Below, in pieces: positions 11,801-63,234 of a stretch of DNA of 64,000 nucleotides (position 1 is its first letter; every line of letters starts with the position of its first letter). The notes below the pieces were generated by a model that saw only the letters and a list, made by a program, of their open reading frames with translations, was not told the origin of the DNA and ran no database searches. Source of the stretch: Desulfamplus sp. (GTDB lineage Bacteria > Desulfobacterota > Desulfobacteria > Desulfobacterales > Desulfobacteraceae); the NCBI GenBank assembly GCA_015232555.1, contig JADFZJ010000006.1:17272-81271 (forward strand). The letters are read 5' to 3'. The position numbers were made by a program, and so were the translations under genes.

Positions 11801-11900
11801 ATTATCTTTTAAAACTGTTCAAATAGGAGTTTAAATAATGTTTATCCTCTTTAAGTTTACCCTATTTAAAGCAGAGCAGAATTAAAGTTTAAGTTTCAAA

Positions 11901-11937: not shown

Positions 11938-11997
11938 TATTCAACTACCCCATTGATCGCACAATTAAGAAGATCACACAATTAACACGGAGACTTT

Positions 11998-12903: not shown

Positions 12904-12986
12904 CAATAGTTAAAGAGTCCCCCAAACATACCGGAGTTGTTATAAAATTAAAAGTTTTGAAATTAAATGACCAAAGGAGGTTTAAA

Positions 12987-13595
12987 GTGCGTTACCATTA
13001 TTATGTTAGCGTAATTTTAGCTTTAATCTTTACATTAACTTTTACACCATTGTTTGGAATAAAAGATGTTCAGGCTCAACAAAACCAAACGAGTGAAAAA
13101 GAGTCTGCAACTAAGGGAGAATCTCTATCAAACGTTATATTTAACTCTCTTAACAACATCTCTTATCAGCAATATTTAGACGCGGGCGACAAAAATTTTA
13201 AGCTCGCTGACATTAATGCAGATGTTATTCTTGTCCAGATTTTCAGTATGTATTGTCCGCATTGCCAAAGAGATGCACCAAATATGAATAATTTTTTCAA
13301 TCTTATTCAAAAGAGCGAATCTTACAAGGACAAGATCAAATTTATAGGAATTGGTGTAGGCAACTCTGAATTTGAGGTAGAATTTTTTCGTAAAACATAC
13401 TCAGTTGAATTTCCACTTTTACCTGATCAAGACTTTAAAATTCATAAACTTTTAGGTGAGGTGAGAACACCATACTTTATAGGCTTTAAAAAAATCAAAG
13501 ACGGCTCTTTAAAGCTGTTCATGTCAGAATCTGGCGGAGATAGAGAGCCTAAAGCCTTTCTTGAGCAGATTGTAAAGCAGGCTGATATTAAGTGA
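12987..13595 (+). CDS. Exported thioredoxin-fold (TlpA/peroxiredoxin-like) protein with CPHC
   Basis: A 202-residue protein when begun at the GTG at 12987, preceded by AAAGGAGG at 12973-12980. The open frame continues upstream into fdhE, but without a signal. From this start the N-terminus is a classical signal peptide (YHYYVSVILALIFTLTFTPL...VQAQ). The body has a thioredoxin fold with VILVQIFSMYCPHCQRDAPN, so the redox pair is Cys-Pro-His-Cys as in DsbA, within a TlpA-like context (FIGIGVGN, FPLLPDQDFKIHKLL, RTPYFIGF). It is likely a periplasmic thiol-disulfide reductase. Its position after fdhE suggests a role in redox homeostasis or cytochrome/Fdh assembly, but the target is unknown. Confidence 0.82.
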   Translation: MRYHYYVSVILALIFTLTFTPLFGIKDVQAQQNQTSEKESATKGESLSNVIFNSLNNISYQQYLDAGDKNFKLADINADVILVQIFSMYCPHCQRDAPNMNNFFNLIQKSESYKDKIKFIGIGVGNSEFEVEFFRKTYSVEFPLLPDQDFKIHKLLGEVRTPYFIGFKKIKDGSLKLFMSESGGDREPKAFLEQIVKQADIK

Positions 13596-13624
13596 GTGTA
13601 GCCTTTTTATATTTAATCGAAACT

Positions 13625-13652
13625 GTAGAGACGCGGGTCCGTGCGTCTCTAC
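13625..13652. repeat. Dispersed 28-bp palindrome, copy 1
   Basis: A nearly perfect palindrome beginning GTAGAGACGC and ending GTGCGTCTCTAC, followed by TTTTTCTT. Two relatives occur at 17552-17579 and 62287-62314. The T-run downstream makes this copy able to act as a terminator for the thioredoxin-fold gene. Confidence 0.85.
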
Positions 13653-13711
13653 TTTTTCTTATAAACTCTTAATAGTCATACAAAATATCGGTTGCAGGAG
13701 GTTAAAATACT

Positions 13712-14341
13712 ATGTGCTGCTATATTAAAAATGCTGTTAAAGTATCTGTTTTTACTATCTTAATTGTTATTTTCAACATTATGGCAATAACATCAGAAGT
13801 TTATTCCCTCTCTGATGTTTATGGAGATAAAATCTATAATATAGGAGAGTTAAAACCAACAGACAGCAATTTAAAGGTAAAAGTCGGCGATATCGCCCCT
13901 GATTTTACCCTTAAAGCCATCTCAGGTCAGACTGTTACATTGAGTCAGTTCAGAGATAAAAAAAATGTTATGCTCACCTTTATTCCAGCAGCATGGACAC
14001 CAGTATGTTCTGATCAGTGGCCTGGATATAATATTGCAAAGCAGCTCTTTGAATCTCACGACACTGTTATTATTGGAATCAGCATAGATAATCTTCCAAC
14101 TCTCTTTGCATGGACACAACAGATGGGAGCTTTGTGGTTTGAAGTTCTTTCAGATTTCTGGCCTCATGGCAGGGTTGCAGACAGCTACGGGATTTTAAGA
14201 GGGGACGGAGTTGCAGAACGGGCGATCTTCTTGATTGATAAAAAAGGTGTGATACGGTTTATAAATGTCAGCGATATCAATACCCGCCCAGATTTAGGTC
14301 AGATTGTAAAAGCAATGCAGGAGATATCAGAAGATAAATAA
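13712..14341 (+). CDS. Peroxiredoxin (AhpC/TSA, AhpE/BCP-like), membrane-anchored or exported
   Basis: A 209-residue peroxiredoxin. The N-terminus has a hydrophobic segment (VSVFTILIVIFNIMAITS) that serves as signal or anchor. The catalytic domain starts VKVGDIAPDFTLKAISGQTV and contains the peroxidatic site AAWTPVCSDQ with the TxxC motif, then IIGISIDNLPTLFAW and AERAIFLIDKKGVIRFINV. It would reduce hydroperoxides at the cell envelope, which fits an anaerobe's oxidative-stress defence. A GCAGGAGG ribosome-binding site precedes the ATG. With the preceding thioredoxin-fold protein it may form a reductant-peroxidase pair. No obvious resolving cysteine is visible near the C-terminus, suggesting a 1-Cys type. 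Confidence 0.85.
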   Translation: MCCYIKNAVKVSVFTILIVIFNIMAITSEVYSLSDVYGDKIYNIGELKPTDSNLKVKVGDIAPDFTLKAISGQTVTLSQFRDKKNVMLTFIPAAWTPVCSDQWPGYNIAKQLFESHDTVIIGISIDNLPTLFAWTQQMGALWFEVLSDFWPHGRVADSYGILRGDGVAERAIFLIDKKGVIRFINVSDINTRPDLGQIVKAMQEISEDK

Positions 14342-14398
14342 TTACAGTTCCTTGCAGTATAAAGGAGAAACTCAAATTCATCTTCAGTCAGCTTAAAA

Positions 14399-15298
14399 TT
14401 AGGGAGATGAAAGACGCAGCCTGCTTATTATATTTGCATGGCAGTAGTTATTGCACTCATCTAAAAAACTCTCCTCTCTCTTTTTAAGAGCAATCATAAG
14501 CAGTTGAATGCAAAGAGCAGCAACTAAAGCTATCAAAGTGGTGTCAAACGCTACTGCAAGCCCTGATGTAATCTCCTGCAAAGATGTTTTAAGATATTCA
14601 ATTCCCTCATTTTTTATAAGAACAGTTCCAAAACTTCCAATTGCCTGAGAAAGTCCAAGAACTGTTCCTATAAAGCCAAGCACTGGAATTGCCCAAACGA
14701 ATCCTCTGATTAAAGCATAACTCGACTCCATCTGATCTTCGTCATTTTGAGCTTGAGCACGAAGAACCTCTGACACATCAGCTATCAATCCGATATTCTT
14801 AAGGTTTGCAAGAGCACGTTCTATACGGTTGAGCAGTACAAAATGTTTTGGATCATCTACAAGACCATACATTCGAGATAGAATGTCTTTTGCAGTATCT
14901 CTTGTCAATTCAAAATCAGCAGTTTGAGGTACAACCATTAAAAAGAGAGCTTTTTGCTGAAAAATAATCTTTCTCCACTTTATAAACATAATCGAAATAG
15001 ACCAGCATGAGAAAAAAACAATAAAGAACGGAGTGATGCCTCTTTGCAAAAAGAGTTCGCTCATCTTACCTATATTCAAGATAGAGCTTATATCTAAAAT
15101 AAAGGGAATAAAATTAGAAATCTCTTTGTAGTAAAATTGAGGGGCGTAAAAGATAAGAAAGAAGAAAACTCCAAGAAAGAAGGTAAGTGTAAGATTGACA
15201 TCAGTATATTTTCCGCCATTTACTCCGATTTTCTCCTCAATATCCATTTTTTTCCATTGAAGAATTTTTATTAAATCACCATTTCGTAATCTGCTCAT
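14399..15298 (-). CDS. MotA/TolQ/ExbB-type proton channel family protein
   Basis: A 299-residue membrane protein with two N-terminal hydrophobic segments (FLGVFFFLIFYAPQFYY; FFIVFFSCWSISIMF) and the ExbB/TolQ core at the C-terminal half. The core reads GFVWAIPVLGFIGTVLGLSQAIGSF, then GLAVAFDTTLIALVAALCIQ, the signature helices lining the proton path. The family couples proton motive force to TonB-, Tol- or MotB-type partners. No ExbD/TolR/MotB gene is next to it, so the partner is elsewhere. It is downstream of the AmpG-like gene on the same strand (about 100 bp). Confidence 0.87.
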   Translation of the reverse strand: MSRLRNGDLIKILQWKKMDIEEKIGVNGGKYTDVNLTLTFFLGVFFFLIFYAPQFYYKEISNFIPFILDISSILNIGKMSELFLQRGITPFFIVFFSCWSISIMFIKWRKIIFQQKALFLMVVPQTADFELTRDTAKDILSRMYGLVDDPKHFVLLNRIERALANLKNIGLIADVSEVLRAQAQNDEDQMESSYALIRGFVWAIPVLGFIGTVLGLSQAIGSFGTVLIKNEGIEYLKTSLQEITSGLAVAFDTTLIALVAALCIQLLMIALKKREESFLDECNNYCHANIISRLRLSSP

Positions 15299-15401
15299 AT
15301 TGTTTTTAATGCCTTTGGCTTATTTTGAAGTTTAATGAGGCATCTTTTTCGGTAAAAATGCCTTCATATAGTTCTTAGTTAAGCATAATATCTTGATATA
15401 T

Positions 15402-16616
15402 TTATTTTTTACTGCTGATATAAAATGGGAATATTATACCAGGAATCGCAATCAAGGTGCAGAAGATAAAAAATCCTGTCCATCGTATATGCTCTACTAT
15501 AAACCCAGTAGGAGCTGATGCAATTACCCGCGGAATACCCATAAGGCTTGAGAGAAGTGCGTACTGAGTTGCTGTAAATCTGCGGTTTGTCATAGATGCC
15601 ATAAATGCGATGTATGCTGCTGTTCCCATACCGCTGGAGATATTTTCAAACGCAATAACTCCTGAAAGCAGAGGGATACTGTGTCCAACCATTGCAAGCC
15701 ATGCAAAACAGGCGGTTGATAATGCCTGAAGGATACCAAACATCCAGAGACTTCGGTTGATGCCAAGTTTGAGCATAAGAACCCCGCCTGCAAATGTTCC
15801 TCCTAAAGTTGCCCAAAACCCGAATACCTTTACCACAGTGCCGATTTCGGTTTTTGTAAATCCAATATCAAGATAGAATGGTGTTGTCATTGCAGATGCC
15901 ATCGTGTCGCCGATTTTGTAAAAGAGAATAAACAGAAGAATTAGTACAGCTCCGTCTCTTGCAAAATACTCTTTTAAAGGCTCTACTACAGCCTCATAGA
16001 TTGTAGCTGGCTGTCCATCAACTACAGCAGGCTCAGGAGTGAAGACAACAGCGGCTACTGCTGGCAGAAGAGAAGCTGCCATAATCAGATAGACCATTGA
16101 AAATGGAATATGGTCAGCAAGGATAAGCCCTCCGCCTGACGCAAGCAGCATACCAGCACGATATCCATAAATATACATGGAAGAGCCAAGCCCAAGCTCT
16201 TCATCATTTAAATCTTCTCTTCTATAGGCATCAACAATAATATCTTGCGATGCACTAAAAAAAGTTACTAAAAATGCAGTAAATGCAACCAGCCACGGTG
16301 CTTTTGAAGGGCTTGTCAATCCAAGCAGAGCAATTGATAAAATAAGCAACATCTGTGAAACCAGAAGCCAGCCCTTTCGTCTGCCTAAAAATGGAAGTGT
16401 AAAGCGGTCAAAAATGGGTGCCCAAAGAAATTTAAGAGTATATGGAAGCCCGACAAGAGAGAACATTCCGATTGTTGCGAGATCAACTCCTTCCTGTTTC
16501 ATCCATGCCTGAAGCACAGAAATTGTAAGCAGCAGAGGAACACCGCACGAAAATCCCATAATAAGAGATACAACCATCTTTCTGCTTACAATTTTGCTAA
16601 AAATTTTATGTGTCAT
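15402..16616 (-). CDS. ampG: AmpG-like muropeptide MFS transporter
   Basis: A 404-residue major facilitator with about twelve membrane helices. Its features fit the AmpG subgroup: KMVVSLIMGFSCGVPLLLT, WMKQEGVDLATIGMFSLVGL, KFLWAPIFDRFTLPFLGRRK (cytoplasmic loop 2-3 motif), QDIIVDAYRREDLNDEELG, and FENISSGMGTAAYIAFMASM. AmpG imports anhydromuropeptides released from cell-wall turnover for recycling. No other peptidoglycan recycling genes are adjacent. The gene could be cotranscribed with the downstream ExbB-like gene. Confidence 0.88.
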   Translation of the reverse strand: MTHKIFSKIVSRKMVVSLIMGFSCGVPLLLTISVLQAWMKQEGVDLATIGMFSLVGLPYTLKFLWAPIFDRFTLPFLGRRKGWLLVSQMLLILSIALLGLTSPSKAPWLVAFTAFLVTFFSASQDIIVDAYRREDLNDEELGLGSSMYIYGYRAGMLLASGGGLILADHIPFSMVYLIMAASLLPAVAAVVFTPEPAVVDGQPATIYEAVVEPLKEYFARDGAVLILLFILFYKIGDTMASAMTTPFYLDIGFTKTEIGTVVKVFGFWATLGGTFAGGVLMLKLGINRSLWMFGILQALSTACFAWLAMVGHSIPLLSGVIAFENISSGMGTAAYIAFMASMTNRRFTATQYALLSSLMGIPRVIASAPTGFIVEHIRWTGFFIFCTLIAIPGIIFPFYISSKK

Positions 16617-49395: not shown

Positions 49396-51075
49396 ATGCT
49401 AAAAAACATCAACCCTGCAACTACATTAAGCTGGAAAAAACTTTCAGACCACTATCAGACAATGAAAGATGTTCACATGAGGAAATTATTTGAGCACGAT
49501 CCAGATCGATTTAACCACTTTTCAATAAAATGGAACGATATTCTGGTCGATTTTTCCAAAAACATTATCACGCATCAGACACTTGAGCTATTACGCCAGT
49601 TGGCAGCAGAGACTTATCTAAAAGATGCTATCAGTAAAATGTACTCAGGAGAGAAGATAAATGGGACAGAAAATAGATCAGTTCTGCACATTGCCTTAAG
49701 AAATATATCTAACACTCCAATTGTTGTTGATGGGCAAGATGTAATGCCAAATGTAAACAGAGTACTTTCACAGATGGAGCAGTTTTCAGATAAAGTGAGG
49801 ACTGGAGAGTGGATAGGTTATACAGGAAAACCAATCGAAAGCATTGTCAATATTGGAATTGGCGGGTCAGATTTGGGACCTGTCATGGTTACAGAGTGCC
49901 TTAAACCATACGCTAACTCTAAAATATCTGACAAAGAGAATATTTCATTCTATTTTGTATCTAATATAGATGGAACGCATATCATGGAGACACTGCAAAA
50001 GGTAAATCCAGAGACAACACTTTTTTTGATTGCGTCTAAAACCTTTACCACTCTTGAAACTATGACCAATGCACATACTGCAAGAAGATGGTTTCTTTCA
50101 CATTCAGGAGATGAGAAGAGTATAAAATACCATTTTGCAGCAATATCCACCAATGTAAATGCTGTGGAGAAATTTGGGATTGCCCGTGAAAATATGTTTG
50201 AGTTCTGGGAGTGGGTAGGAGGACGATACTCTCTTTGGTCTGCCATTGGTCTTTCAATTGCGTGTGCTATTGGTTTTGATAATTTCAGAGAGCTTCTTTC
50301 TGGTGCTCACGACATGGATAACCATTTCAAAACAACCCCACTTGATCAAAATATTCCAGTAATTCTTGGGTTGATTGGCATCTGGTATATCAATTTTTTT
50401 GGAGCAAAGACAGAGGTTATCCTTCCCTATGATCAGTATATGCACAGATTTCCTGCATATTTTCAGCAGGGTAACATGGAGAGCAACGGAAAAACAGTTG
50501 ACAGGAATGGGGCAAATATTAATGGGTACTCTACAGGTCCTGTAATCTGGGGGGAATCTGGCACAAATGGACAACACGCATTTTATCAGCTTATCCATCA
50601 AGGCAGCCAGATGATTCCTGCTGATTTTCTTGTCCCAGCAATCAGCCATAACCTTGTAGGCGAACATCATAATATTCTCTTATCAAACTTTTTTGCACAG
50701 ACTGAGGCTCTTCTAAATGGCAGAACCCTTGATACGGTTACTAAGGAGATGAAAGCTAAGGGAAAAAGCGACGAGGAGATCGCAAAAATTGCACCTCATA
50801 AGGTCTTCATAGGCAACAAACCCACAAATTCAATACTATTTAAAAAGCTGACACCAAGAACCCTTGGAAGCCTTATTGCCATGTATGAGCATAAAATTTT
50901 TGTTCAGGGGGTCATCTGGAATATATTTAGTTTTGATCAATGGGGTGTGGAATTGGGAAAAGAGCTTGCCAATAAGATACTTCCAAAGCTGGAAAATGAT
51001 GAATTTATTACCCTGCATGACAGCTCAACGAATGGACTTATCAACACATTCAAGTCTATGCGTATTTTTGCATAA
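49396..51075 (+). CDS. pgi: Glucose-6-phosphate isomerase
   Basis: Interconverts glucose 6-phosphate and fructose 6-phosphate. It has 559 residues, the length of the long bacterial/eukaryotic type. Signatures: [89 protein letters not shown] (catalytic His) and [18 protein letters not shown] (catalytic Lys region). A GAGGAG ribosome-binding site precedes the ATG. It stands alone on the plus strand. Confidence 0.97.
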
Positions 51076-51440
51076 CCCTCATGCCTTACAGTGAAGCTCT
51101 ATAGATGATTCTCCCTAACTTTAATAGAAAAATTAGAGATTGAAAAAAAATCAACGAAATAAAAAAAATGTTATATTTGCTATTGCCTTTACATTTATCT
51201 TTTGCTATTTTTTACTAAGTAAAGTTATGAATGTATTTGTTTTATACTTGAAAAAGAAGATGTAAAAATAATATCTTATAAAATTGTAGATATTTGTCTT
51301 GTATTGTATACAATTATTAAAAATAAAGGGGGTATGTGCAAAACAAATATGGGTCAAAGAATATAAATTACTTATAATAATGAATGATGTTTTAAATACT
51401 AATCAAAAAAAACAATGTAAAACATAAAGGAATAGTGAAA
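51076..51440. other. AT-rich intergenic region between pgi and HTH-REC gene
   Basis: About 360 bp, very AT-rich, with no open frame of note and no recognisable RNA gene. It should contain the promoter of the HTH-REC regulator. I see no clear terminator for pgi in it. Confidence 0.4.
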
Positions 51441-52052
51441 ATGAGTAAAAATCCTGATATTCTGACAATTCCCCAGGCAGCAAAATATTGTGGCGTAACC
51501 CGTATGAGTATGTGGCGATGGGTTAAAGCTGGAAAGATAAACTCTTTTGTAACTCCAGGTGGTCATCACAGAATAATTAAATCTGATCTTGAAAAATCTC
51601 TTAAAGCCCAGGGCATGAAGATGATGATAAGACAGATTGATGCACCAGCACGAGTTCTGATTGTTGATGACAATGAATTAGTTGTAAAAGGGCTTGAAAA
51701 ACTTTTTCTTGAAGAGTCTTTTGAAGTAGAAACAGCAAAAGATGGTTTTGAGGCTGGAGTAAAGGCAAAACAGTTTAATCCTGATCTGATTATACTTGAT
51801 CTTATGATGCCTCAGATGGATGGTTTTGAGGCTTGTAAGTTCCTGAAAAACAATGACTCAACATCACACATCAAGATTCTTATTCTTACTGGTCATGCTT
51901 CTAAAGAGAATATGAATGAGATCATGGATGCAGGAGCAGATGATTATATGGAAAAACCTGTTGACAATGCTGAGCTTGTTGATAAATCAGAAGACCTTTT
52001 AAGAGACTTGCACTGGATTAAAGAGCATATAAGAAGCAAGCGTAGAAGATAA
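51441..52052 (+). CDS. MerR/excisionase-type HTH fused to a response-regulator receiver
   Basis: A 203-residue protein from the ATG at 51441 (a GTG six bases earlier is also in frame). Residues 5-55 are a helix-turn-helix of the excisionase/MerR type (ILTIPQAAKYCGVTRMSMWR; WVKAGKINSFVTPGGHHRI). Residues 66-188 are a receiver domain with VLIVDDNE, phosphoacceptor Asp in LIILDLMMPQMDGF, Thr in ILTGHA and Lys in YMEKPVD. The order, DNA-binding before receiver, is the reverse of most response regulators. No kinase gene is adjacent. A terminator follows. Confidence 0.88.
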   Translation: MSKNPDILTIPQAAKYCGVTRMSMWRWVKAGKINSFVTPGGHHRIIKSDLEKSLKAQGMKMMIRQIDAPARVLIVDDNELVVKGLEKLFLEESFEVETAKDGFEAGVKAKQFNPDLIILDLMMPQMDGFEACKFLKNNDSTSHIKILILTGHASKENMNEIMDAGADDYMEKPVDNAELVDKSEDLLRDLHWIKEHIRSKRRR

Positions 52053-52242: not shown

Positions 52243-53712
52243 ATGAAATTTGTAATCATTGGAGGAGATGCAGCAGGAATGAGTGCTGCAAGCAGGGCAA
52301 AAAGAAATAATCCTCAGATGGAGGTAACTGTCTTAGAAAAAACTCAAGATGTCTCATACAGTGCATGTGGTATGCCCTATAACATCGCTGACCCTTTACG
52401 GGATATGGACGATCTGATTGTAAGAAAAGCAGATGTTTTCAGACAAAAAAACGGGATAAATCTTCTTACAGGACATAGAGTTGATAAGATCGATCCTGTT
52501 GCTAAAACAGTCTCTGGTGTCATTATCCCCTGTTCTACTTCTTTTTCTGATTTAGATAATACAAATTGCACCAATAGCAATCAAACCGAGGGTTATCAAA
52601 AATTTTCATATCCATTTGACAAGCTACTTATTGCAACAGGAGCAACACCATTAATTCCAAATATTGAAGGTGTCAATCTTGAAGGTGTCATGCCTCTTAA
52701 GAGCCTTGAGCATGGAAGAGTAATCAAATCTTTTATTAACTCTAATTTATATTCAAAGCCTGTAAAAAAAGCTGTAATAATAGGCATGGGATACATAGGT
52801 CTTGAGATGTGCGAAGCATTAAGGGCACGCTCAATTGAAGTAGCTATGGTTAAACCGAGCAGCCGTTTTTTACCTTGGATGGTATCAGAGCTTGCAGATG
52901 TTGTAAAACAAGAACTTAATACAAATAGTATCAAAATATATAGCGGTTATGATATTCAAAGAGTTGTGCAAGCTGATAAGAATGAGAATAAAAAAGCTCA
53001 AAGCAATGGAGGCAGCCCCCTTGCTGTTATATGCAAAAACTTAAGCTCAAGTGAAGATTTAACCTTAGATGCTGATATTGTTATTGTGGCTTCTGGTGTT
53101 AAGCCGTGCAGTCAACTTGCTGTAGAGGCGGGGCTTGAAACAGGTATATCAGGTGAGATATCAGTTGATAAGGCTCTTCAAACCTCAGATGATAATATCT
53201 ACGCAGCAGGAGACTGTGCTGATGCCTTTCATATTGTAACTGGCACAAAGTGCTGGATTCCATTAGCTTTAAGGGCTAATAGGGCAGGATGGGCAGTTGC
53301 AGATAATGTGTGCGGTATTGAGACGTTTCTGCCAGGGGTTGCTGGAACTGCTGTATTTAAGGTGTTTGAACTTCAAGTTGCACGTACAGGACTTACAGTA
53401 AAAGAGGCTCTTAACTCTGGTTTTGATGCAGTTGAGGTGGTAATTCAGACAAGATCAAAGGCACATGCCCACCCTGGTTCTCAGACAATTCATGTTGCAA
53501 TATCAGGAGATAAAAAGACTGGAAGGCTTATCGGAGTTCAGATGGTTGGAAAAGATGGTGTAGCACACCGCATTAATGCAGCGGCTGTAGCACTTCATGC
53601 AAAGATGACAGTAGCAGATTTTGCCCAGACAGATCTTGCTTATGCCCCGCCATTTGGTCCTGTGTGGGATCCGCTTTTGACTGCTGCCAATCAACTTCTC
53701 AAAAAATTATAA
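52243..53712 (+). CDS. FAD-dependent pyridine nucleotide-disulfide oxidoreductase (CoA-disulfide reductase/NADH oxidase-like)
   Basis: A 489-residue flavoprotein. The FAD motif is FVIIGGDAAGMSAASRAKRN and the single redox cysteine lies in VSYSACGMPYNIADP, as in CoA-disulfide reductase, Npsr and NADH oxidase. The NAD(P)H motif is AVIIGMGYIGLEMCEALRAR, and IYAAGDCADAFH is the second FAD contact. The dimerisation domain contains GTAVFKVFELQVARTGLT and ends LAYAPPFGPVWDPLLTAANQ. No rhodanese domain is fused. An insert at about residues 96-120 (SDLDNTNCTNSNQTEGYQKF) lengthens it beyond the usual 440-450. In sulfate reducers such enzymes may reduce polysulfide, CoA-persulfide or oxygen; the substrate is not determined. 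GGGGGC precedes the ATG. Confidence 0.9.
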   Translation: MKFVIIGGDAAGMSAASRAKRNNPQMEVTVLEKTQDVSYSACGMPYNIADPLRDMDDLIVRKADVFRQKNGINLLTGHRVDKIDPVAKTVSGVIIPCSTSFSDLDNTNCTNSNQTEGYQKFSYPFDKLLIATGATPLIPNIEGVNLEGVMPLKSLEHGRVIKSFINSNLYSKPVKKAVIIGMGYIGLEMCEALRARSIEVAMVKPSSRFLPWMVSELADVVKQELNTNSIKIYSGYDIQRVVQADKNENKKAQSNGGSPLAVICKNLSSSEDLTLDADIVIVASGVKPCSQLAVEAGLETGISGEISVDKALQTSDDNIYAAGDCADAFHIVTGTKCWIPLALRANRAGWAVADNVCGIETFLPGVAGTAVFKVFELQVARTGLTVKEALNSGFDAVEVVIQTRSKAHAHPGSQTIHVAISGDKKTGRLIGVQMVGKDGVAHRINAAAVALHAKMTVADFAQTDLAYAPPFGPVWDPLLTAANQLLKKL

Positions 53713-53862: not shown

Positions 53863-54669
53863 TTACCCCAGCTTATTCTCCTCAAGAGCTTCTTTATGAA
53901 AATCGTATCCAGACAGCCCCTTACCAGACAACGATACATCTGAATCTTCACTGCCATCGCCAAAAAATTCGGGATAAACCTTAATGCACTCTCCAAGAAT
54001 TTGATCAAATGGAAGATCAGCAAAATGTCCACGATCTGCAAGATACTCCATGTGTCGATTTCCTTTAGTGTCAAACTGATGAAACAGCGAATCATTAACA
54101 CCGTCAAACTCTAATGGTTTTATATTAAAATGGGTGCACAAAGTAAGATTAAATGCGGGTGTAGCCTTAACCCACTTGTTGTTGAAAAAAAGCTCAACAT
54201 AACCGTGATACATAAAAACATCAGTTTGCATTAAAGTTCTTAAACGGCTTGTTGATATATGATTTTTAACATCAGCAAAACCAAGCCGTGCAGGAATCCC
54301 CTCAAAACGGGCAACAGCAGCAAGAAGAACAGCTTTTGCAACACAATATCCTGACATTTTTTTGAGTGTAGAACTTGCTTTGAAATTTACCCTATCGTTC
54401 TTGAAATCATAGGGGTCATAACGTATTTCGTCCCTGACAGCGTAGTATAGTGCTATTGCCTTCTGCTTATCGCTGTCTCTGCTGCTGCATCTTATTCGGG
54501 CAAACTGAGCCACTTCTGGGATATCATAATCCATGAAATATGTGGGTTGAAGATAGATTTTCAGCTCTTCTTTTGTTGTTTTCAAATCATCTTCCTTGAT
54601 TATACTTTTGTTTTTGTTATAATTTTGATTACTATTGTCATTAATATAATTATCACTATTATCAGTCAT
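53863..54669 (-). CDS. Transglutaminase-like cysteine protease-fold protein
   Basis: A 268-residue protein with a transglutaminase-like core. The conserved helix is IALYYAVRDEIRYDPYDF. The catalytic Cys is in KMSGYCVAKAVLLAAVARFE, the His in FMYHGYVELFFNNKWVKATP, and the third position is in ATPAFN, where Asn or a nearby acid would complete the triad. The N-terminus is Asn/Lys-rich (NDNSNQNYNKNKS), another low-complexity segment. No signal peptide. It lies 5 bp after the crotonase gene, so it belongs to the megasynthase operon. Its role there is unknown; some such proteins hydrolyse amide or thioester bonds. Confidence 0.8.
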   Translation of the reverse strand: MTDNSDNYINDNSNQNYNKNKSIIKEDDLKTTKEELKIYLQPTYFMDYDIPEVAQFARIRCSSRDSDKQKAIALYYAVRDEIRYDPYDFKNDRVNFKASSTLKKMSGYCVAKAVLLAAVARFEGIPARLGFADVKNHISTSRLRTLMQTDVFMYHGYVELFFNNKWVKATPAFNLTLCTHFNIKPLEFDGVNDSLFHQFDTKGNRHMEYLADRGHFADLPFDQILGECIKVYPEFFGDGSEDSDVSLSGKGLSGYDFHKEALEENKLG

Positions 54670-54674
54670 ATAGT

Positions 54675-55496
54675 TTATTTCCCGGAAAAAACAGGTTTTC
54701 TTTTTTCAACAAACGCAGTAACAGCCTCCATCAGATCATTAGATGGAATGATATTGCTGCTGATTGACGCTACATATTTAAGACCATCATCAATAGATTT
54801 TCCAACTCCATAGTTGAGTACATCTTTTGATGCCTGAACTGCTAAAGGAGACATGGTTGCAATTTCCATTGCCAATGCCGCTGCCCGCTCCATAAGGATA
54901 TCAGGGGTATCATAAACGTCATTGACCAATAAAATCTCCTTTGCACGCCCTGCTGTAATATTACGAGCAGTATATGCAAGCTCACGGGCATGTCCTTGTC
55001 CAACAATAAGAGGGATTCTCTGCAAAACACCTACATCTGCAACAAAGCCGACTGCCGCTTCACGTAAAGAGAAGAGTGCATCTTTTGAGCAAATACGTAT
55101 ATCACAGGCAGTTGCCATATCAAGACCAGCTCCAATACAATATCCATGAATAGCAGCAATTACAGGTTTTCGACACCGCTCAATGCACGACATACTATCT
55201 TGAAGATTATAAATTTTAGAGAGAAGTTTCCATTTAATGCCTCCTTTCTGGCTCTGCTCCATAAGCTCAGGCAACTCTTTGACCATCTCCATAAGATCAA
55301 TGCCAGCAGAGAAGCAGGGTCCTTTGCCAGCAATAATAACTACTCTTATATCAGGGTCTTTATCAAGATCATCAAATATGGGTATGGACTCTTTCCATGC
55401 AGGCGGATTCATGGCATTTTTTTTATCGGGACGATTCAAATACACCCATGCAACTGGAGGCTTTTTATCAACACTGTAAAACTTATAATTATTCAT
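54675..55496 (-). CDS. Crotonase-family protein, dienoyl-CoA isomerase-like
   Basis: A 273-residue enoyl-CoA hydratase/isomerase. The oxyanion hole is formed by GPCFSAGIDLMEM and IHGYCIGAGLDMATACDIRI. The segment FSLREAAVGFVADVGVLQRI contains the Glu and the ADVG Asp typical of delta3,5-delta2,4-dienoyl-CoA isomerase (ECH1), rather than the Glu pair of a hydratase. It is placed 4 bp after the megasynthase gene, so cotranscription is very likely. A double-bond isomerase beside a KS-CLF-AT-DH-DH enzyme could set the position of double bonds in the product, which is an inference from position. Confidence 0.85.
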   Translation of the reverse strand: MNNYKFYSVDKKPPVAWVYLNRPDKKNAMNPPAWKESIPIFDDLDKDPDIRVVIIAGKGPCFSAGIDLMEMVKELPELMEQSQKGGIKWKLLSKIYNLQDSMSCIERCRKPVIAAIHGYCIGAGLDMATACDIRICSKDALFSLREAAVGFVADVGVLQRIPLIVGQGHARELAYTARNITAGRAKEILLVNDVYDTPDILMERAAALAMEIATMSPLAVQASKDVLNYGVGKSIDDGLKYVASISSNIIPSNDLMEAVTAFVEKRKPVFSGK

Positions 55497-55500
55497 GACG

Positions 55501-58500
55501 CTATATTCCTTTTAATTTGTAAGGTTTGGCACTTTCACTCCAAAATAGTTCTATTTCTTTGCGGGACAACCCGACAATTCTCATTCCCATATTTTTGTAA
55601 AGCACAATCCTGTGATCATCAGAAAACATGTGTGCATTTGCAATAACGTATGGTTCATAATTATCTTGACCTGCCCGATTTTTAGTTCGAGTAATGTTCT
55701 GTTTAATAGAGTTAGATTCAACATATTTATATCCAATCTCTTTAATTTCAATCTCATATCGTGCCTTTTTAGTCTGTGTAGTTACAGGACCTCTGCACTT
55801 TAAATCGCTTTCAATACCTTGGATTACATCATAAAAAGGCTCGTCCCGCGTTGATATCCACCCTATTCTCTGGGTAAAAATACGTACGGCATGAGCACAG
55901 CACTCATACATCAAAGTTCCGGGCATGACCATATCATCAACAAAATGGCAGATCAAAAACCAGTCATCAGGATAGATGTCAGCCTCTGCACTGATAAAGC
56001 CCTTTCCAAATCTTCCGCCAGCCGGGTTAAACTCAAGAACCCTATCAATCAGGTGCATTCTGCTGTTATCGTTTATTTTTCCGCCCTGATATATTCTACT
56101 GCCCGGAAGACGTAAATTCTTTCCAAGCAAAATACCATCAAATTGTCTACCAAAACATGCACCAAGCTCTCCTCTTCTTAAACTCTCCACTTGAGAGTCT
56201 GAATAGCTCTCTTTATGAAGTGCTACTACTGGGGAAAACAATGTCTCTTCTGTCTGTTCGATATAATACTTTATTTTATCTCTATTCTCTTTTGTAATAA
56301 TTTCAGTATCTTCTTTTTTCAGGATAATTCCGCCTGAATTTTTAACCTCATCAAGAGTAAAAAAACCAGCACAGCCATCACACATAGAAATAAGAAGCTC
56401 AGGGGTGTTGTCAGCATTGCTAAGATTACTAAAATTATTAGCCAAATCGCTCTTTTTAGATTTGATAAATCCCTTATAGTGAAAAAAGAAGAGATATATC
56501 TCACCCTGCTTTAGGAATCTATCAATCTCAATATGATACTCTATTGTCTCCCCTGGTTCTGGCAGAGTTCTATGAAAGGTTACCTTAGCATCAAGAAGGC
56601 GATAACGCCGTCTGCCTTTAACAACATGATCAATTCCCAACCAAGAACACAAAAAGAGATCAGCCTGTCCAGCTTCGATTGATATTGAGACTGGAGCTTT
56701 TCCGCCGTCCAAATACCAAGCACCCTCTTTTACGTCATGCTGAGTTATGATCTTACCTGACTTTAAAGAGAGCATCTCACCTTGAATATCCATGATTCTA
56801 TCAACAAGCATAAGCGGCTCGTCTGGAAGGCGGACTCTGACATGATAGGTATCAATAATATCAAAAGCCTCTCCAAGCACTTTGCCGGCAGAACCAACAG
56901 CAAACTCCATGCACATATCTCTGTCAAGAAGATGTTTTGTTGATTGTGGAGGTTTTGCTGATTGTGATGATATAGATGATTTTGCTGCTATAACAGCCTC
57001 ATTCTCTATTTGATTTACATTTGGTGGATTTACCTCAATGTATGACAAATTTTCTGGTGGAATATTTACAATATTTGATGCAATGTTGGTTAAACAGGCA
57101 AACTGCTTTTCTAACTCTAACATTGTATTTTCAGAAAATTCTAAAAATTTTGTGTGGGCATCTGCTGTAATTTGTGCACATTGAGCAGCATAATTAAAAA
57201 TATTAGGAATTTCAGGAATATGAGGTATATCAGATACGATCTCATTTGGTTCTTCCTGTAAATTGGATAAATTTACAAGAGATGTATCTTCTATAGATTC
57301 AGCAGATTCAGCCAAATAAGATTTGGACTCTCTGCTCTTTAGAGCTTCCGCATAATCAGCAAGAGTATTAAATGCTCTGATAAGGCTTATCTCCTCATCT
57401 TCCTCTTTTGAGCTTGAAGATAATGAAACAGCAAGATGCTCTTTATCTCCAAGAATTTTTCCTACTGCACGGGTGCAAGATGAGCCGGGTCCAATCTCTA
57501 TAAAAACTCTTACTCCGTCATTCCATGCGTCATTTATAAGCTCTGTGTAGTCAAATCCATAAAGTGCCTGATTTACGATAGAGTCAGCAGTTGCCTCTGT
57601 TTCTGGCGTATATTTTCTGCCTGAAAAACAGCTGTAAAAATCAATATCTTCAGGCGGATTGCACTCAAATCTGTGCAAATCTCTATATTCATCTTCATAC
57701 GCTTTAGCAACTGAGCAGTGAACTGTTACCACGCCGTCAAGATACATTGCTCCGCAGCCAGTCTCTTTGATAAACTCCTCAACCTGTTCGGAACTTCCGC
57801 CGATTACGCACTCATCAGGAGCATTGACAATCAGAAGATATAGTTTGTCATATTTTCCTGATTCATAGGTTTTACCTTGTCCTAACTTATCTACTTGACT
57901 AAATTTATTTGGCTGTCCTGATTTATAAATCTGATTTGATGTAATAGATTGATAAGATTTAATAATACTTTCTACAAAATCTCTGCTTCTATTGACAGCA
58001 GCTACTCGCCAATCTGCTTTTTCATCATCTTGAAGCTGCCACGATTTTCTTGCTGCAATGCACTCTCCAGCAAGTTTTGTGGTAAAAAGATCAGATGCTT
58101 CCATTCTTCTTAACATATCTTCAGGATCGTTCCAGACACGTAAAGAGAACAATCCAGCAGTTTCGCCTAAGCTGTGACCAATGCAGGCATCAGGTTTTAA
58201 CCCAAACTTTTCAGCAACACGGGTCATCAGAACACCAAAAGAGACCTGACCAAAGATCATGTTGTGCGAATGGCTGCTGATATCTTTTGAGGCTCGATCT
58301 TGCCAGCCATATTTCCACGATATCAGCTTTGGATAGTAGATAGATGGCAGCATTCGTTTACTTAAAGATGCACCAGATGCGTCCATATCACGTAAAATAT
58401 CTGCAAACATAACGCCGATTTTACGACCCATTCCAACAAAATGGTTGCCTGAACCGGGATATAAAAAGGCAATTTTACCAGCTTGTTTGAGTTGTTTGAT

Positions 58501-61500
58501 TTTATCGGCGATTTGAGATTGAAACTCTGTCAAATATTTAGATTCTGATTTTATAAAATAATCGTATTTTGACTTTGACAAATAATCATATTTTGAATTT
58601 GCTAAACAATCAGACTTTGAATTTGCTAAATAGTCAGACTTTTTGTTTGAAGAGTAATCAGATGAAATCTTAAGCTCTTCAAGCACAACATGAGAAGCAG
58701 TTCCTTCAGTAGAAGAGATTGAAGCTGCAACCGCTGTCCGTCTATCTTGTAAACTCTCCTTAATCCAGAACGCTGGAAATTTTGGAAAATAAAACGGAGT
58801 CTTACTCAAATCAACGGTGCTGAAATTTGCTGCTTGAGATTGAACTACTGTAGATTGAACGGCTGGAAATTCAAGTGTATTAGATTGAATTGCTGGAGAT
58901 TTCAGTGCAGGAGACTCAAATTTTGCTATCGGAGGAATAATTTGATGATAGATTGCGAGGGCAGATTGAATAATTGAGATTAAACCAGAAACAGCGTGGG
59001 TATCTCCAATAATTGAAGAGCTTGAGCCGATTGCACATGAGAGGGGTGCTGGATTTTTACTCTCTGTTTTTAATGAGTTGTTATCATTAGAAAAGTCAAA
59101 ATCTCTATTTATAATTTTATTAAATACTGATGATTCAATATTATCTTCCAAAGGATCACCGCTGCCGTGTGCCTGATAAAGTCCAATATCAGCGATTGAA
59201 ACACCTGCACAATCAAGAGCGTTTGAAAGAGAGTTAGAGTAAGTTTCTATTGCAGATTGAACTTTCAGAGTCTCATCATCATTAGAATCAAATCTCTTCT
59301 CCAACCCGCCTGAAGCTGTGCCTATACCTTTAATAACAGCGTAAATTTTATCACCATCTTTCTGTGCCTGCTCAAGAGTTTTTAGAACTATTGCAGCCGT
59401 CCCTTCAGATGGAAAAACTCCTTTTGTTCTGCTGTCAAACGGTGCAGATGTTTCATAAGATGATGCGTAATATCTCAATATCCTATTTAAAGTGTCCTGC
59501 CTGACGTCTCCAGCCATATCAACAGAACCGCAAAGAAAGATTTTTGTCTCGCCTCTGCGTAAAGATTCAACGCCAATCTCAAGAGCCTTTATTCCAGATA
59601 ATGCACCAGCAGAGACAGTAAAACACGGTCCGCCAAGTTTAAACTCTCTTGCAACTCTGCTTGCAACAATGCCTCCAAGTGCCCCAAGCGTTCTCTCTGA
59701 TGTGAGAGGCGGATAGTTATTGTCTAAATTTTCGTTTATATTCTTTGAATTGTAGATTTTACTCTCTAACTTATCATTTCTGCTGTCTGACTTGTCATAG
59801 CTGCTGCCTTTATTTTTAGACTCTTTCTCTATGATTCTCCATCTTATGTGAAAATTGGTTGCACCATAATCAAACTCAATTCCAATGGCTGCACCAAAAT
59901 CTGTGCGAAGCTCTCCCTTTTCAGGTCTTGGAGATATTCCAGCATCTTTTATTGCACCCATTGCAGCTTTAAGCATAATCAGGTGTTGTGGCAGCAGATC
60001 ATCTATCTGGTTTGGCGGAATATGAAACTCTCCTGGATATGTGGTCAACGCTTTCATCCAGAGACCATTTGAATTATCGTTAGATGATAAATCTGACAGC
60101 TCATTATTATCTGCAAAGATTGTCTGCTTAAAGCCGTCCAGATTCATTGCAGCAGGAGTGATAACTTCCATTCCAACAATTGCGATAGATAAAGATGAAT
60201 TTGATTGAGACGTTTCAATTTCTTCATCTTGAAACTGTTCGGATAAAATATTTGAATCTGTTGAAACAGGTTGCTTTAATTCATTTGGGCTTGATTTCTC
60301 AGCATCTCCTGACTCTTTTGATTCAGAAAAATAGATTGAAAAATTATCTTTGCAAAACTCCTCAACAAGAATATGAGCATTGATTCCACCAAAACCAAAC
60401 GCACTAACCCCTGCCCGTCTTGCTAAAGATTTATTTTTATCTTTATCTTGCGTCAGAGGCATCGGCTTCCATTCGTCTGGTTCAGTTTGAACATAAAATC
60501 CAGTTGTATAAAGCGGACTGTCTGGAGTTGGTTCGGAAAAATTGAGAGAGGGAGGCAGGAATTTTTCATTGATTGCAATTAAGGTCTTGATAAATCCAGC
60601 AATACCAGCAGCAGTTAAAAGATGACCTGTCATGGATTTTACAGAACCAATAGCACAACCTTGTTTAAATTTTTTTGAACCAAGATTTTTATACGCTGCA
60701 AGATTTTTATCCTCTGCATGGTACTGGGAAACTCCTGAATCTTGAGACAATAGACCAGCATTCTGCCAGACAGATACCATTGATTTAAGCTCTATGTTGT
60801 CGCCAACTGGTGTCGCAGAACCGTGGCACTCAATATATTGAACATCACAAGGAAGCCAGCCAGCACTTGAGTAAGCAGATTGCATTGCACGAATCTGACC
60901 TTCTGAAGCTGGTGCAACAAGATTGCCTTCAATGTCGTTTGACCAGCCTGCACCGCAAATCACGCCGAAAATATGATCTCCGCATGAAACTGCATCTTCA
61001 AGACGCTTCAACACCACAACGCCTGCACCTTCGCCAACAACAAGACCATCTGCATTTTTATCAAACGGCGAACATCTGCCAGACGGAGATAATGCCCTAA
61101 GCTGTGTAAAGCCGATTTGAGTATAAAGAGAGTCTGCACAAGAAACTCCGCCTGCAACCATCATATCAACCCTGCCAGATATAAGCTGTTCAGATGCGAT
61201 TTTTATTGCATAAAGAGAAGATGCACATGCAGCATCAAGCGTAAAACTTCCGCCGCCAAGACCCATTGCCTGAGCAAGAAGGGCAGCAGGAAAAGAGAGC
61301 ATTTTAGCAGCAAGAGCATCAATGTTGGTGATATCAGGAGGAATGCCGATAAAATTCTTATCAGAAATAAAATTCGTATCAGAATGAGAGATTGCACCAT
61401 TGCGGGTATAGCCTCTTTTACCTTCCATGACGATCTGCCAGGCAAGCTCTGATGATTTTGCAGTTGGAAGAGCAATTGCAGCCAGCACAACGCCAGCTCT

Positions 61501-61854
61501 TTTTCTTATCTCCTGATTAGCAAAACATTGGCTTAAGGCTTCTCTTCCTGAATTAAGAACCATCTTGTGAAGAGGGTCAAGCTCAAGCAGCAAATCTTTG
61601 TCCACCAAGAATCCTTCAGGGTCAAACTCAAATCCTGCGACAAGACCTGCCCTTTTAGAGCAGGCTGAATCTGGTCTATAATCTGATGAAATTACATTTT
61701 TAGGGTTTACAATCCAGCGATCATCAGGAATATCAACAATTGACTCTTTTTTTTCCATGATATTGCGTTTAAATTGTTCAAGATTGATTGCACCCGGAAA
61801 TATACCAGACATTCCAACAACAGCAATTTTTTGCATAACCGCTCTTTTATTCAT
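55501..61854 (-). CDS. PUFA-synthase-like megasynthase with KS-CLF-AT-DH-DH domains (PfaC/PfaB-like)
   Basis: A 2117-residue iterative fatty-acid/polyketide synthase. Order: a ketosynthase (about 7-505), active Cys210 in FTLDAACASSLYAIK, His residues in IECHGSATPVGD and KSMTGHLLTAAGI; a chain-length-factor-like KS (about 560-1085) with the Cys lost (FTVSAGALSGIKALEI); an acyltransferase (about 1165-1500) with GHSLGE near residue 1226; and two FabA-type hot-dog dehydratase domains (about 1650-1850 and 1885-2110), e.g. PDEPLMLVDRIMDI and CHFVDDMVMPGTLMYEC. No ACP serine motif, KR or ER domain was found, so a partner must carry the acyl chain. PfaC is KS-CLF-DH-DH; here an AT is inserted, as in thraustochytrid subunit B (KS-CLF-AT). 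Linkers carry Ser/Asn/Lys-rich repeats. The start may be 61854 or the Met at 61836. The crotonase gene follows 4 bp later. Confidence 0.9.
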   Translation of the reverse strand: MNKRAVMQKIAVVGMSGIFPGAINLEQFKRNIMEKKESIVDIPDDRWIVNPKNVISSDYRPDSACSKRAGLVAGFEFDPEGFLVDKDLLLELDPLHKMVLNSGREALSQCFANQEIRKRAGVVLAAIALPTAKSSELAWQIVMEGKRGYTRNGAISHSDTNFISDKNFIGIPPDITNIDALAAKMLSFPAALLAQAMGLGGGSFTLDAACASSLYAIKIASEQLISGRVDMMVAGGVSCADSLYTQIGFTQLRALSPSGRCSPFDKNADGLVVGEGAGVVVLKRLEDAVSCGDHIFGVICGAGWSNDIEGNLVAPASEGQIRAMQSAYSSAGWLPCDVQYIECHGSATPVGDNIELKSMVSVWQNAGLLSQDSGVSQYHAEDKNLAAYKNLGSKKFKQGCAIGSVKSMTGHLLTAAGIAGFIKTLIAINEKFLPPSLNFSEPTPDSPLYTTGFYVQTEPDEWKPMPLTQDKDKNKSLARRAGVSAFGFGGINAHILVEEFCKDNFSIYFSESKESGDAEKSSPNELKQPVSTDSNILSEQFQDEEIETSQSNSSLSIAIVGMEVITPAAMNLDGFKQTIFADNNELSDLSSNDNSNGLWMKALTTYPGEFHIPPNQIDDLLPQHLIMLKAAMGAIKDAGISPRPEKGELRTDFGAAIGIEFDYGATNFHIRWRIIEKESKNKGSSYDKSDSRNDKLESKIYNSKNINENLDNNYPPLTSERTLGALGGIVASRVAREFKLGGPCFTVSAGALSGIKALEIGVESLRRGETKIFLCGSVDMAGDVRQDTLNRILRYYASSYETSAPFDSRTKGVFPSEGTAAIVLKTLEQAQKDGDKIYAVIKGIGTASGGLEKRFDSNDDETLKVQSAIETYSNSLSNALDCAGVSIADIGLYQAHGSGDPLEDNIESSVFNKIINRDFDFSNDNNSLKTESKNPAPLSCAIGSSSSIIGDTHAVSGLISIIQSALAIYHQIIPPIAKFESPALKSPAIQSNTLEFPAVQSTVVQSQAANFSTVDLSKTPFYFPKFPAFWIKESLQDRRTAVAASISSTEGTASHVVLEELKISSDYSSNKKSDYLANSKSDCLANSKYDYLSKSKYDYFIKSESKYLTEFQSQIADKIKQLKQAGKIAFLYPGSGNHFVGMGRKIGVMFADILRDMDASGASLSKRMLPSIYYPKLISWKYGWQDRASKDISSHSHNMIFGQVSFGVLMTRVAEKFGLKPDACIGHSLGETAGLFSLRVWNDPEDMLRRMEASDLFTTKLAGECIAARKSWQLQDDEKADWRVAAVNRSRDFVESIIKSYQSITSNQIYKSGQPNKFSQVDKLGQGKTYESGKYDKLYLLIVNAPDECVIGGSSEQVEEFIKETGCGAMYLDGVVTVHCSVAKAYEDEYRDLHRFECNPPEDIDFYSCFSGRKYTPETEATADSIVNQALYGFDYTELINDAWNDGVRVFIEIGPGSSCTRAVGKILGDKEHLAVSLSSSSKEEDEEISLIRAFNTLADYAEALKSRESKSYLAESAESIEDTSLVNLSNLQEEPNEIVSDIPHIPEIPNIFNYAAQCAQITADAHTKFLEFSENTMLELEKQFACLTNIASNIVNIPPENLSYIEVNPPNVNQIENEAVIAAKSSISSQSAKPPQSTKHLLDRDMCMEFAVGSAGKVLGEAFDIIDTYHVRVRLPDEPLMLVDRIMDIQGEMLSLKSGKIITQHDVKEGAWYLDGGKAPVSISIEAGQADLFLCSWLGIDHVVKGRRRYRLLDAKVTFHRTLPEPGETIEYHIEIDRFLKQGEIYLFFFHYKGFIKSKKSDLANNFSNLSNADNTPELLISMCDGCAGFFTLDEVKNSGGIILKKEDTEIITKENRDKIKYYIEQTEETLFSPVVALHKESYSDSQVESLRRGELGACFGRQFDGILLGKNLRLPGSRIYQGGKINDNSRMHLIDRVLEFNPAGGRFGKGFISAEADIYPDDWFLICHFVDDMVMPGTLMYECCAHAVRIFTQRIGWISTRDEPFYDVIQGIESDLKCRGPVTTQTKKARYEIEIKEIGYKYVESNSIKQNITRTKNRAGQDNYEPYVIANAHMFSDDHRIVLYKNMGMRIVGLSRKEIELFWSESAKPYKLKGI
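58541..58660 (-). repeat. Five 24-bp tandem repeats encoding octapeptides in the megasynthase
   Basis: Five consecutive 24-bp units, e.g. TATTTTGAATTTGCTAAACA then ATCA at 58589-58612, in the linker before the AT domain. On the coding strand they give SDYSSNKK, SDYLANSK, SDCLANSK, YDYLSKSK and YDYFIKSE. A degenerate unit follows (SKYLTEF). The repeat keeps the frame and makes a flexible spacer. Confidence 0.9.
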
Positions 61855-62334: not shown

Positions 62335-63234
62335 TTATGATGAAGGGGTCGGAGGTTCAGCAACAACAACTTTTGCAAATCGTAATACCTCCCTGCCTCT
62401 AACAAATCCGCCAGATACAGTTTGGACTACCATTCCATTTTCAATTCCATGAACAAATTTTGTCTCAACAACTTTCATTGTTTCAGAATTAAAAGGCACA
62501 TTATCAGTTTGGATTGGTTCAATATCCATCATAGATAGTGCTTTATCAAAACGGCTGATTGCCATTTCATATCCCTCACATATTATATGGATATCTTTAG
62601 GTGGACGGCGGAAGAACCCTTTCCTTTGGGACATCGCTACGCTTTTTCTATAACCGTCTATTAAGGCATCTCTTACATCAAAAAAACAGAATGCAGATTT
62701 TCTTTCGCTGTTCATGCGGATATTCTGCTCAAGCTGTGCAATCTGATTAGTTTTCTCCTTGAACAGAGTGTAAATTTCACCATACTCATCTGTAACGCCT
62801 TTAACACTGTTAAGTGCTGTTACTGTCCTATTCTGATCCTTGTTGTAAAGTTTAATCTCCTGACGAAGTGCTGTAAATTCACAGAGCATGGTATAAAGAT
62901 CACAGGTATCAGGTGTTGCCGTCATTACTGGAGGCTTTTCTGAAGGTATCTCAGAGAGCCATAACTGGAAATCTTCAAGAGCTTTAATTTTCCATGATGC
63001 TTCAGTTACAGGTTCAGCAGCAGCAATCTCTTCATGCTCAGGCATGGCAGGCTTATTAAAAGAGAGCTTGTTTCTTATAAAACAGATTAATGAAATAAAT
63101 CCATTTTTAATTGGAATTAAAATTTTCTGCTTTGAGAACAAAAATATGCTTTTTATAAGGTTTTTAATGAACTCTAATGCTCTTTTTATAAACATGGCTG
63201 TTCTATCAAAAAGTTCACTTGATTTAAAATTCAT
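62335..63234 (-). CDS. GrpE-like nucleotide exchange factor with N-terminal membrane-proximal region
   Basis: A 299-residue protein. The C-terminal 60 residues match the GrpE beta domain (VETKFVHGIENGMVVQTVSG; GFVRGREVLRFAKVVVAEPP). The middle is a long helix region with likely coiled coil (LYTMLCEFTALRQEIKLYNK; FKEKTNQIAQLEQNIRMNSE), as in GrpE dimers. The N-terminal 60 residues are basic and hydrophobic (KNLIKSIFLFSKQKILIPIK; NGFISLICFIRNKL), not found in housekeeping GrpE (about 190 residues), and may bind membrane. It is probably a paralogue serving a dedicated Hsp70 rather than the DnaK system, since dnaK and dnaJ are absent. The gene is upstream of the zinc-ribbon and megasynthase genes. 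Confidence 0.75.
   Translation of the reverse strand: MNFKSSELFDRTAMFIKRALEFIKNLIKSIFLFSKQKILIPIKNGFISLICFIRNKLSFNKPAMPEHEEIAAAEPVTEASWKIKALEDFQLWLSEIPSEKPPVMTATPDTCDLYTMLCEFTALRQEIKLYNKDQNRTVTALNSVKGVTDEYGEIYTLFKEKTNQIAQLEQNIRMNSERKSAFCFFDVRDALIDGYRKSVAMSQRKGFFRRPPKDIHIICEGYEMAISRFDKALSMMDIEPIQTDNVPFNSETMKVVETKFVHGIENGMVVQTVSGGFVRGREVLRFAKVVVAEPPTPSS

Follow-up and report, generated by a model that had tools for sequence, protein, structure and literature searches.

Genes that fuse the pfaB and pfaC functions of polyunsaturated fatty acid (PUFA) synthases, also called secondary lipid synthases, are well known. In the text of their 2011 survey, Shulse and Allen give pfaBC with the plan KS-CLF-AT-DH2 for types C and D, and further pfaBC fusions for types H, I, and L (PMC3098273). 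Geobacter bemidjiensis, which has a type I pfaBC cluster together with ole genes, makes hentriacontanonaene, C31:9 (PMC3098273, PMC4882568). In Shewanella, a genetic link ties the same product to the Pfa synthase (PMC6463001), and PfaB has been described as a long-chain terminal acyltransferase (PMC12895367). Here, we analyze a gene of this kind in a genome of Desulfamplus, of the family Desulfobacteraceae (G000; 3.82 Mb, 106 contigs), within a 64,000-nt stretch that we call the window (contig C73, positions 17272-81271). The gene is, by its domain content, a pfaBC fusion subunit, KS-CLF-AT-DHa, of the PUFA-synthase kind, and its product most likely works with partners encoded elsewhere in the genome. 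An earlier note on this DNA had taken the exact combination to be one not known as described, a view that the types named above do not support; the domain combination is largely known because they carry pfaBC fusions and type D also has a split pfaA.

The pfaBC subunit and its probable partners

The earlier note had placed three open reading frames (ORFs) within 53863-61854, with a 4-bp spacer between the first two, and both place and spacer are confirmed; the ORFs lie on the minus strand, at 55501-61854, 54675-55496, and 53863-54669. Their length and conservation are much greater than chance could produce. The largest is divided as follows.

55501..61854, minus strand: protein of 2117 aa, predicted to be the pfaBC fusion subunit of a secondary lipid synthase of the PUFA type (ORF, Pfam/NCBIfam, domain profiles)
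60343..61830, minus strand: ketoacyl synthase (KS) domain, residues 9-504, with the active-site Cys motif at residue 207 (profiles, motif)
58666..60216, minus strand: chain length factor (CLF) domain, residues 547-1063, KS Cys motif pattern unmatched (profiles, motif)
57418..58494, minus strand: PfaB-like acyltransferase (AT), residues 1121-1479, GHSLGE motif at 1226 (profiles, motif)
55570..56928, minus strand: DHa, one FabA-type double-hotdog dehydratase (DH), residues 1643-2095, presumed catalytic H1970 and E1984 (profiles, motif, model)

In this protein, Pfam recognizes a FabA domain and an acyltransferase besides two ketoacyl-synthase units, and neither Pfam nor NCBIfam finds an acyl carrier protein (ACP), ketoreductase (KR), or enoyl reductase (ER) domain in it. 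The KS Cys motif pattern matches the chain only once, in the KS and not in the CLF, as expected of a KS-CLF pair. Acyl_transf_1 scores above its cut-off, and the ATc profile and the GHSLGE motif match as well; TIGR02816 pfaB_fam gives 79 bits, below its cut-off of 144. The closest named relatives of the protein are Desulfamplus loci. In two other pfaBC chains, those of L187 (G010) and L108 (Desulforapulum), the profile scan detects no AT domain in the region from CLF to DHa.

The earlier note had read the chain as KS-CLF-AT-DH-DH without ACP, KR, or ER. All of this stands except the final pair: the apparent “DH-DH” stretch is, as modeled, a single FabA-type dehydratase made of two hotdog folds. 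Its AlphaFold2 model (mean pLDDT 84.6) has two hotdogs, as read from strands and helices; its matches in the PDB are structures of FabA and a chain of a fatty acid synthase. Of the two FabA-type dehydratases of a DH2 plan, the domain profiles find only DHa on this chain.

The ACP, KR, and ER partner genes that the earlier note had suggested looking for, for a fused PfaC/PfaB-like subunit, are present in the same genome, and an orphan synthase without partners is accordingly rejected. Contig C28 encodes a KS-AT-ACP-ACP protein (pfaA1), with two ACPs, and directly after it a KR-FabA protein (pfaA2, KR-DHb), so that the KS-MAT-tandem ACP-KR content of pfaA is found over two adjacent ORFs. The enoyl reductase gene pfaD lies at C31:47403-48800 and scores 597 bits against a cut-off of 449. 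Homologues of all four enzymes of the OleABCD pathway are also encoded: oleA on C31, oleB (72% identity) and oleC (70%) on C33, and oleD (58%) on C97. All frames are open, and the KS, AT, both ACP, DHa, and DHb motifs are intact.

Linkage was followed in two sets. The first comprises 50 relatives with a visible 3' part of pfaBC among the matches listed (49 in the tally, with G052 added as a miss); outside it stand G027, with an N-terminal piece of pfaBC only, and G002, G006, G014, G039, G047, and G054, for which the matches listed include no pfaBC 3' part. The second set is 80 named loci. Six of these, titled Desulfamplus, are contigs of genus relatives (G001=L092, G004=L051, G005=L054, G007=L052, G008=L053, G009=L112), so the sets are not independent. 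In 40 of the 50 relatives, oleA comes immediately after pfaBC in the same orientation (median gap 6 bp, largest 854). Of the 63 named loci with at least 1200 nt downstream, 36 have oleA within 3 kb on that side; of the 55 with at least 3000 nt upstream, 32 have pfaA within 3 kb there.

This linkage, the C31:9 product of G. bemidjiensis, and the Pfa dependence seen in Shewanella make a polyunsaturated acyl chain for OleABCD the most likely product. We put the probability at about 0.77 that pfaBC works in trans with pfaA1, pfaA2, and pfaD, and that the polyunsaturated acyl product most likely goes to a polyene hydrocarbon through OleABCD. In the predicted protein-protein assembly, with each domain active as its family suggests, growing chains would be carried on the ACPs of pfaA1 (KS-AT-ACP2) and elongated by KS and KS-CLF. 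The KR of pfaA2 would reduce, and the FabA-type DHa and DHb would dehydrate and isomerize, leaving cis double bonds; PfaD would act as the ER on steps destined to be saturated, and the PfaB-like AT would move or release the long chain. OleA would join the polyunsaturated acyl products by head-to-head condensation, and OleB, C, and D would finish the presumptive product, a long polyene hydrocarbon akin to hentriacontanonaene. The broad guess of the earlier note, an unsaturated lipid or hydrocarbon made without oxygen, is sound, and the partners and four ole genes in the genome agree with it.

It is important to set out what weighs against this proposal. The synthase and ole genes are spread over five contigs (C28, C31, C33, C73, and C97), and pfaBC adjoins neither oleA nor pfaA. 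The C28 pfaA reaches 870 bits against the PfaA model, under the cut-off of 1010, which we attribute to the split of the gene. In 10 of the 50 relatives pfaBC and oleA are not adjacent: oleA was not found in G004 and G005, and in eight (G007, G020, G031, G040, G045, G052, G055, and G057) it is on another contig than pfaBC. Among these cases, the pfaBC match of G031 is incomplete, and the contigs of G052 and G055 end soon after pfaBC. A search of the literature by title and start of abstract found no report of a polyene or polyunsaturated lipid for Desulfamplus and no lipid data for this genome.

Instead of a hydrocarbon precursor, or besides it, the synthase might make a membrane PUFA resembling eicosapentaenoic (EPA), docosahexaenoic (DHA), or arachidonic acid (ARA), or a shorter one. 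The ARA/EPA type D cluster of Bacteroidetes has a similar plan, with split pfaA and pfaBC, in the text of the survey (PMC3098273), and oleA is unlinked to pfaBC in this genome. Nevertheless, all four ole genes are present, and the linkage of oleA to pfaBC in 40 of 50 relatives points the other way; we regard a membrane PUFA as possible but rather unlikely.

Another large synthase of this genome, a single chain of 3909 aa on contig C62 (L009, 5145-16874), was considered as a partner of pfaBC and rejected; it unites several KS with AT, two ACPs, KR, a PKS-type DH, and an NMO-type reductase in a single polypeptide. It adjoins two ORFs, one with TPP and POR_N domains, which we take to resemble indolepyruvate ferredoxin oxidoreductase. 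Five more ketosynthase matches, in large open frames, lie at G000:C51:50172-76424 and probably belong to a separate polyketide cluster.

Placement of the dehydratases

In PUFA synthases, the PKS-type dehydratase (DHpks) is described as serving steps that are later reduced by the ER, and the FabA-type enzymes as dehydrating and isomerizing to cis bonds (PMC9702510, PMC9667614). Domain profiles that we built and ran on fetched chains reveal three states. Among order-level outgroups, pfaA ends in KR-DHpks (3/3 fetched) and pfaBC in DHa-DHb (3/3 fetched). The named loci have the same arrangement for the most part: DHa and DHb share a chain in 66 of 80, and the 44 KR chains include DHpks in 42 and DHb in none. 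The 14 loci without DHb on the pfaBC chain are six titled Desulfamplus (L054 also ends with its contig), one Desulforapulum (L108), six others that end with the contig (0-2 nt left), and L122 (Acidobacteria, 9707-15616), with its frame broken inside DHa, 188 nt before the contig end.

The window's family is arranged differently. All 10 pfaA chains fetched from nine family members outside the genus and from G051 end in KR-DHpks-DHb, and all 13 pfaBC chains of the family, genus and window included and some incomplete at the 5' end, have DHa without DHb. Genus pfaA genes are split in two, and all six second halves fetched, own genome included, read KR-DHb without DHpks. A split pfaA is not by itself diagnostic of the genus, since G023, of another genus, also has one, with DHpks retained. 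Pfam identifies the spacer domain between KR and DHb as PS-DH in G016.

A tree of 66 hand-picked domains (20 outgroup loci and five of the six genus KR-DHb chains among the sources; pieces outside about 300-520 residues excluded) separates DHa from DHb at 100/100. The 14 pfaA-borne DHb domains of the family form a group at 100/100, which becomes 15 with G051 at 83/85, and this group falls among 20 pfaBC-borne DHb. Marker motifs agree between the window's genome and locus L089: HFVDDMVMPG in DHa and HFYQDPVCPG in DHb. Since the family's pfaA-borne DHb group together among pfaBC-borne ones, the second FabA-type dehydratase apparently moved from pfaBC to pfaA by one relocation in this family, to which we presume that Desulfobacterium autotrophicum HRM2 may also belong. 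The tree gives moderate support for G051 sharing the relocation.

The PKS-type dehydratase was sought separately, with this spacer domain of a family relative as the query and a threshold of E<=1e-8. Matches were found in 44 of 58 genomes and in none of the 10 genus genomes, of which four show no KR-DHb chain either and hence say little; this absence also counts against a working pathway of the kind proposed. By profile, no PKS-type DH stands behind the KR in the genome's own KR chain or in five others of the genus, and a divergent one does exist in the 3909-aa synthase. The domain has apparently been lost in the genus, as far as these searches can tell.

The failure to detect DHpks in any of the 10 genus genomes, though only six show the KR chain due to carry it, would also fit a decaying system with little or no product, as would genes on five contigs; a 2016 review suggests that the pfa genes of Desulfobacterium autotrophicum may be remnants (PMC4882568). 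Decay is nonetheless improbable in our view, given that frames are open throughout with all the catalytic motifs listed above intact, and that six genus genomes, this one included, share the KR-DHb chain.

Domain shuffling as such has precedents: in Pseudoalteromonas sp. DS-12 the order of the DH domains is swapped (PMC3098273), and in type D the KR is separate and the AT fused (PMC4882568, PMC3098273). A search by title and start of abstract found no published description of the relocated dehydratase or of the three-gene set, and the type S figure of the survey may show a relocated DH (PMC3098273). It is the dehydratases, one moved and the other missing, that merit further study, despite the precedents for a one-DH pfaBC and a split pfaA. 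They amount to a natural domain swap, in which one dehydratase apparently changed subunits throughout a bacterial family and a second was apparently lost in one genus, and such variants could be used to test how the two dehydratase classes set double bonds in PUFA synthases. Desulfamplus are magnetotactic, anaerobic sulfate reducers, and the seemingly “orphan” synthase is here placed in a scattered pathway for polyunsaturated hydrocarbons in them. As a speculation, and one we would not expect to hold, DHpks loss and a FabA-type DH directly behind the KR could mean that every KR-reduced chain is passed to a dehydratase that forms cis double bonds; the product would be richer in double bonds than those of relatives, and the dienoyl isomerase joined to pfaBC could be recruited in trans to correct bond positions.

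The adjoining crotonase and transglutaminase-like genes

The genes around pfaBC in the window are these; the TGL/ECH block is that of the transglutaminase-like protein (TGL) and the crotonase (ECH), with Pgi, a response regulator (RR), and a CoA-disulfide-reductase-like flavoprotein (CoADR).

55497..55500, minus strand: 4-bp spacer, presumed rearrangement junction together with the unconserved last pfaBC codons (genus alignment)
54675..55496, minus strand: crotonase with dienoyl-CoA-isomerase residues, 273 aa, in the separate Pgi-RR-CoADR-TGL-ECH block (NCBIfam, alignment, relatives)
53863..54669, minus strand: TGL, 268 aa, in the same separate block (Pfam, relatives)
52243..53712, plus strand: CoADR, under the family cut-off, neighbor of the TGL/ECH block in the genus (NCBIfam, relatives)
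49396..52052, plus strand: two ORFs, 49396-51075 (which we take to be Pgi-like) and 51435-52052 (presumably RR-like), flanking the TGL/ECH block in genus relatives (ORF list, relatives)
62335..63234, minus strand: GrpE-like protein; genus relatives G005 and G007 also have a homologue no more than 3 kb upstream of their pfaBC (Pfam, relatives)

The crotonase scores above the NF004794 cut-off, and its best solved relatives are the Delta3,5-Delta2,4-dienoyl-CoA isomerases 1DCI and 2VRE, presumably of rat and human. The alignment retains all three acidic residues equivalent to rat D176, E196, and D204, which we take to be the catalytic ones. For the third protein, Transglut_core of Pfam is above its cut-off; Cys and His are invariant in 13 of 13 aligned family members, and Thr stands in place of the usual Asp, within the motif WxKATPxF (alignment reading). 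Its sequence has no PDB match at E<=1, and its fold model, from a two-sequence alignment, has a pLDDT of 41.5.

Conservation of these genes with the synthase is another matter. In the genus relatives that have both genes (G001, G003, G007, and G008), crotonase and TGL are adjacent to each other, near CoADR, RR, or Pgi and away from pfaBC; CoADR, RR, and Pgi genes flank them in the window too. Outside the genus, crotonase and TGL are on separate contigs in 10 of 10 relatives with both. Of the 18 relatives with both pfaBC and a close crotonase orthologue, 17 carry them on different contigs (in draft assemblies, which often leave their distance indefinite) and G024 has them 2.0 Mb apart; the three-gene set therefore seems to have been joined in this lineage. 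Among the 50 relatives, neither gene was seen to have a close orthologue beside pfaBC, and in the 63 named loci with 1200 nt or more downstream of pfaBC, neither occurs within 3 kb on that side. The earlier note had treated the three genes as a set and had itself named their not being conserved together as one of two findings that would refute it; the proposed three-gene system is, in the genomes and loci compared, not conserved.

Genus pfaBC proteins agree to about “IELFW” and diverge over the last dozen residues, and no pfaBC-like sequence was seen by eye upstream of the crotonase in five relatives, which puts the presumed rearrangement junction in the last pfaBC codons or the 4-bp spacer. 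Crotonase and TGL are probably bystanders, placed beside pfaBC by rearrangement. In two outgroup relatives the crotonase stands beside a radical-SAM/TRAM protein, in one case with a polyprenyl synthetase next, a neighborhood that gives no pointer to service for a lipid synthase. The crotonase was also considered as a general pfa neighbor and rejected, the crotonase about 6.5 kb from pfaBC in L051 and L052 being a 33%-identical paralogue; in L051 (G004), MutS- and amidase-like genes lie between it and pfaBC.

A dedicated three-gene operon, in which the crotonase shifts the double bonds of the synthase product and the TGL acts on that product, seems very unlikely next to this, and some observations do favor it over the bystander reading. 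The spacers of 4 and 5 bp (the second at 54670-54674, between crotonase and TGL) and the purine-rich AAAGGA that closely precedes the crotonase start suggest cotranslation in this genome, and the crotonase keeps its isomerase residues. In G020 (L286, G020:C47), a close crotonase orthologue lies tail to tail about 110 bp from pfaA, the only other juxtaposition with pfa genes that was noticed, and in L057 a TGL relative (53% identity, 14562-15272) is found behind ole genes, 4.9 kb downstream of pfaBC. Set against these are the separation from pfaBC in all 18 relatives, drafts though they are, the 0 of 63 among named loci, and the company of CoADR, RR, and Pgi genes in genus relatives. Dienoyl-CoA isomerases, moreover, act on CoA esters, unlike the synthase, which works on ACP esters.

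Comparison with described systems

The crotonase, a putative isomerase, resembles the Delta3,5-Delta2,4-dienoyl-CoA isomerases (1DCI and 2VRE, its best PDB matches), with all three acidic residues shared; this likeness comes without a conserved link to the synthase.

For pfaBC itself, close comparisons are the types C, I, and K of Deltaproteobacteria (Geobacter, Desulfococcus oleovorans, and Desulfatibacillum alkenivorans); C and I share the fusion, and K is called similar to I (PMC3098273). Type C differs in its KS-CLF-AT-DH2 plan, whereas the window chain is without DHb, and type I combines the fusion with ole genes and, in G. bemidjiensis, with C31:9 (PMC3098273). For type S (Desulfobacterium autotrophicum HRM2), the text of the survey gives no architecture, and the type may already show the relocated DH (PMC3098273). 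A hybrid PKS-NRPS lipid clade that includes Microcystis has a split pfaA and a fused pfaBC with one or two DH/I domains, which gives a one-DH pfaBC a precedent; its pfaBC is, unlike ours, without CLF, and the available part of that source mentions no DH moved behind the KR (PMC13291983).

Type D (Psychroflexus torquis and Ulvibacter) is like this genome's system in plan, with pfaA split into pfaA1 (KS-AT-ACP5) and pfaA2 (KR) and a pfaBC of KS-CLF-AT-DH2 (PMC3098273). Compared with it, the window's genome has 2 ACPs instead of 5, scattered genes, ole genes, and one FabA-type DH on pfaBC with the second on pfaA2 behind the KR. The architecture of pfaBC itself is largely known, and the newer point is this apparent relocation of DHb to pfaA.

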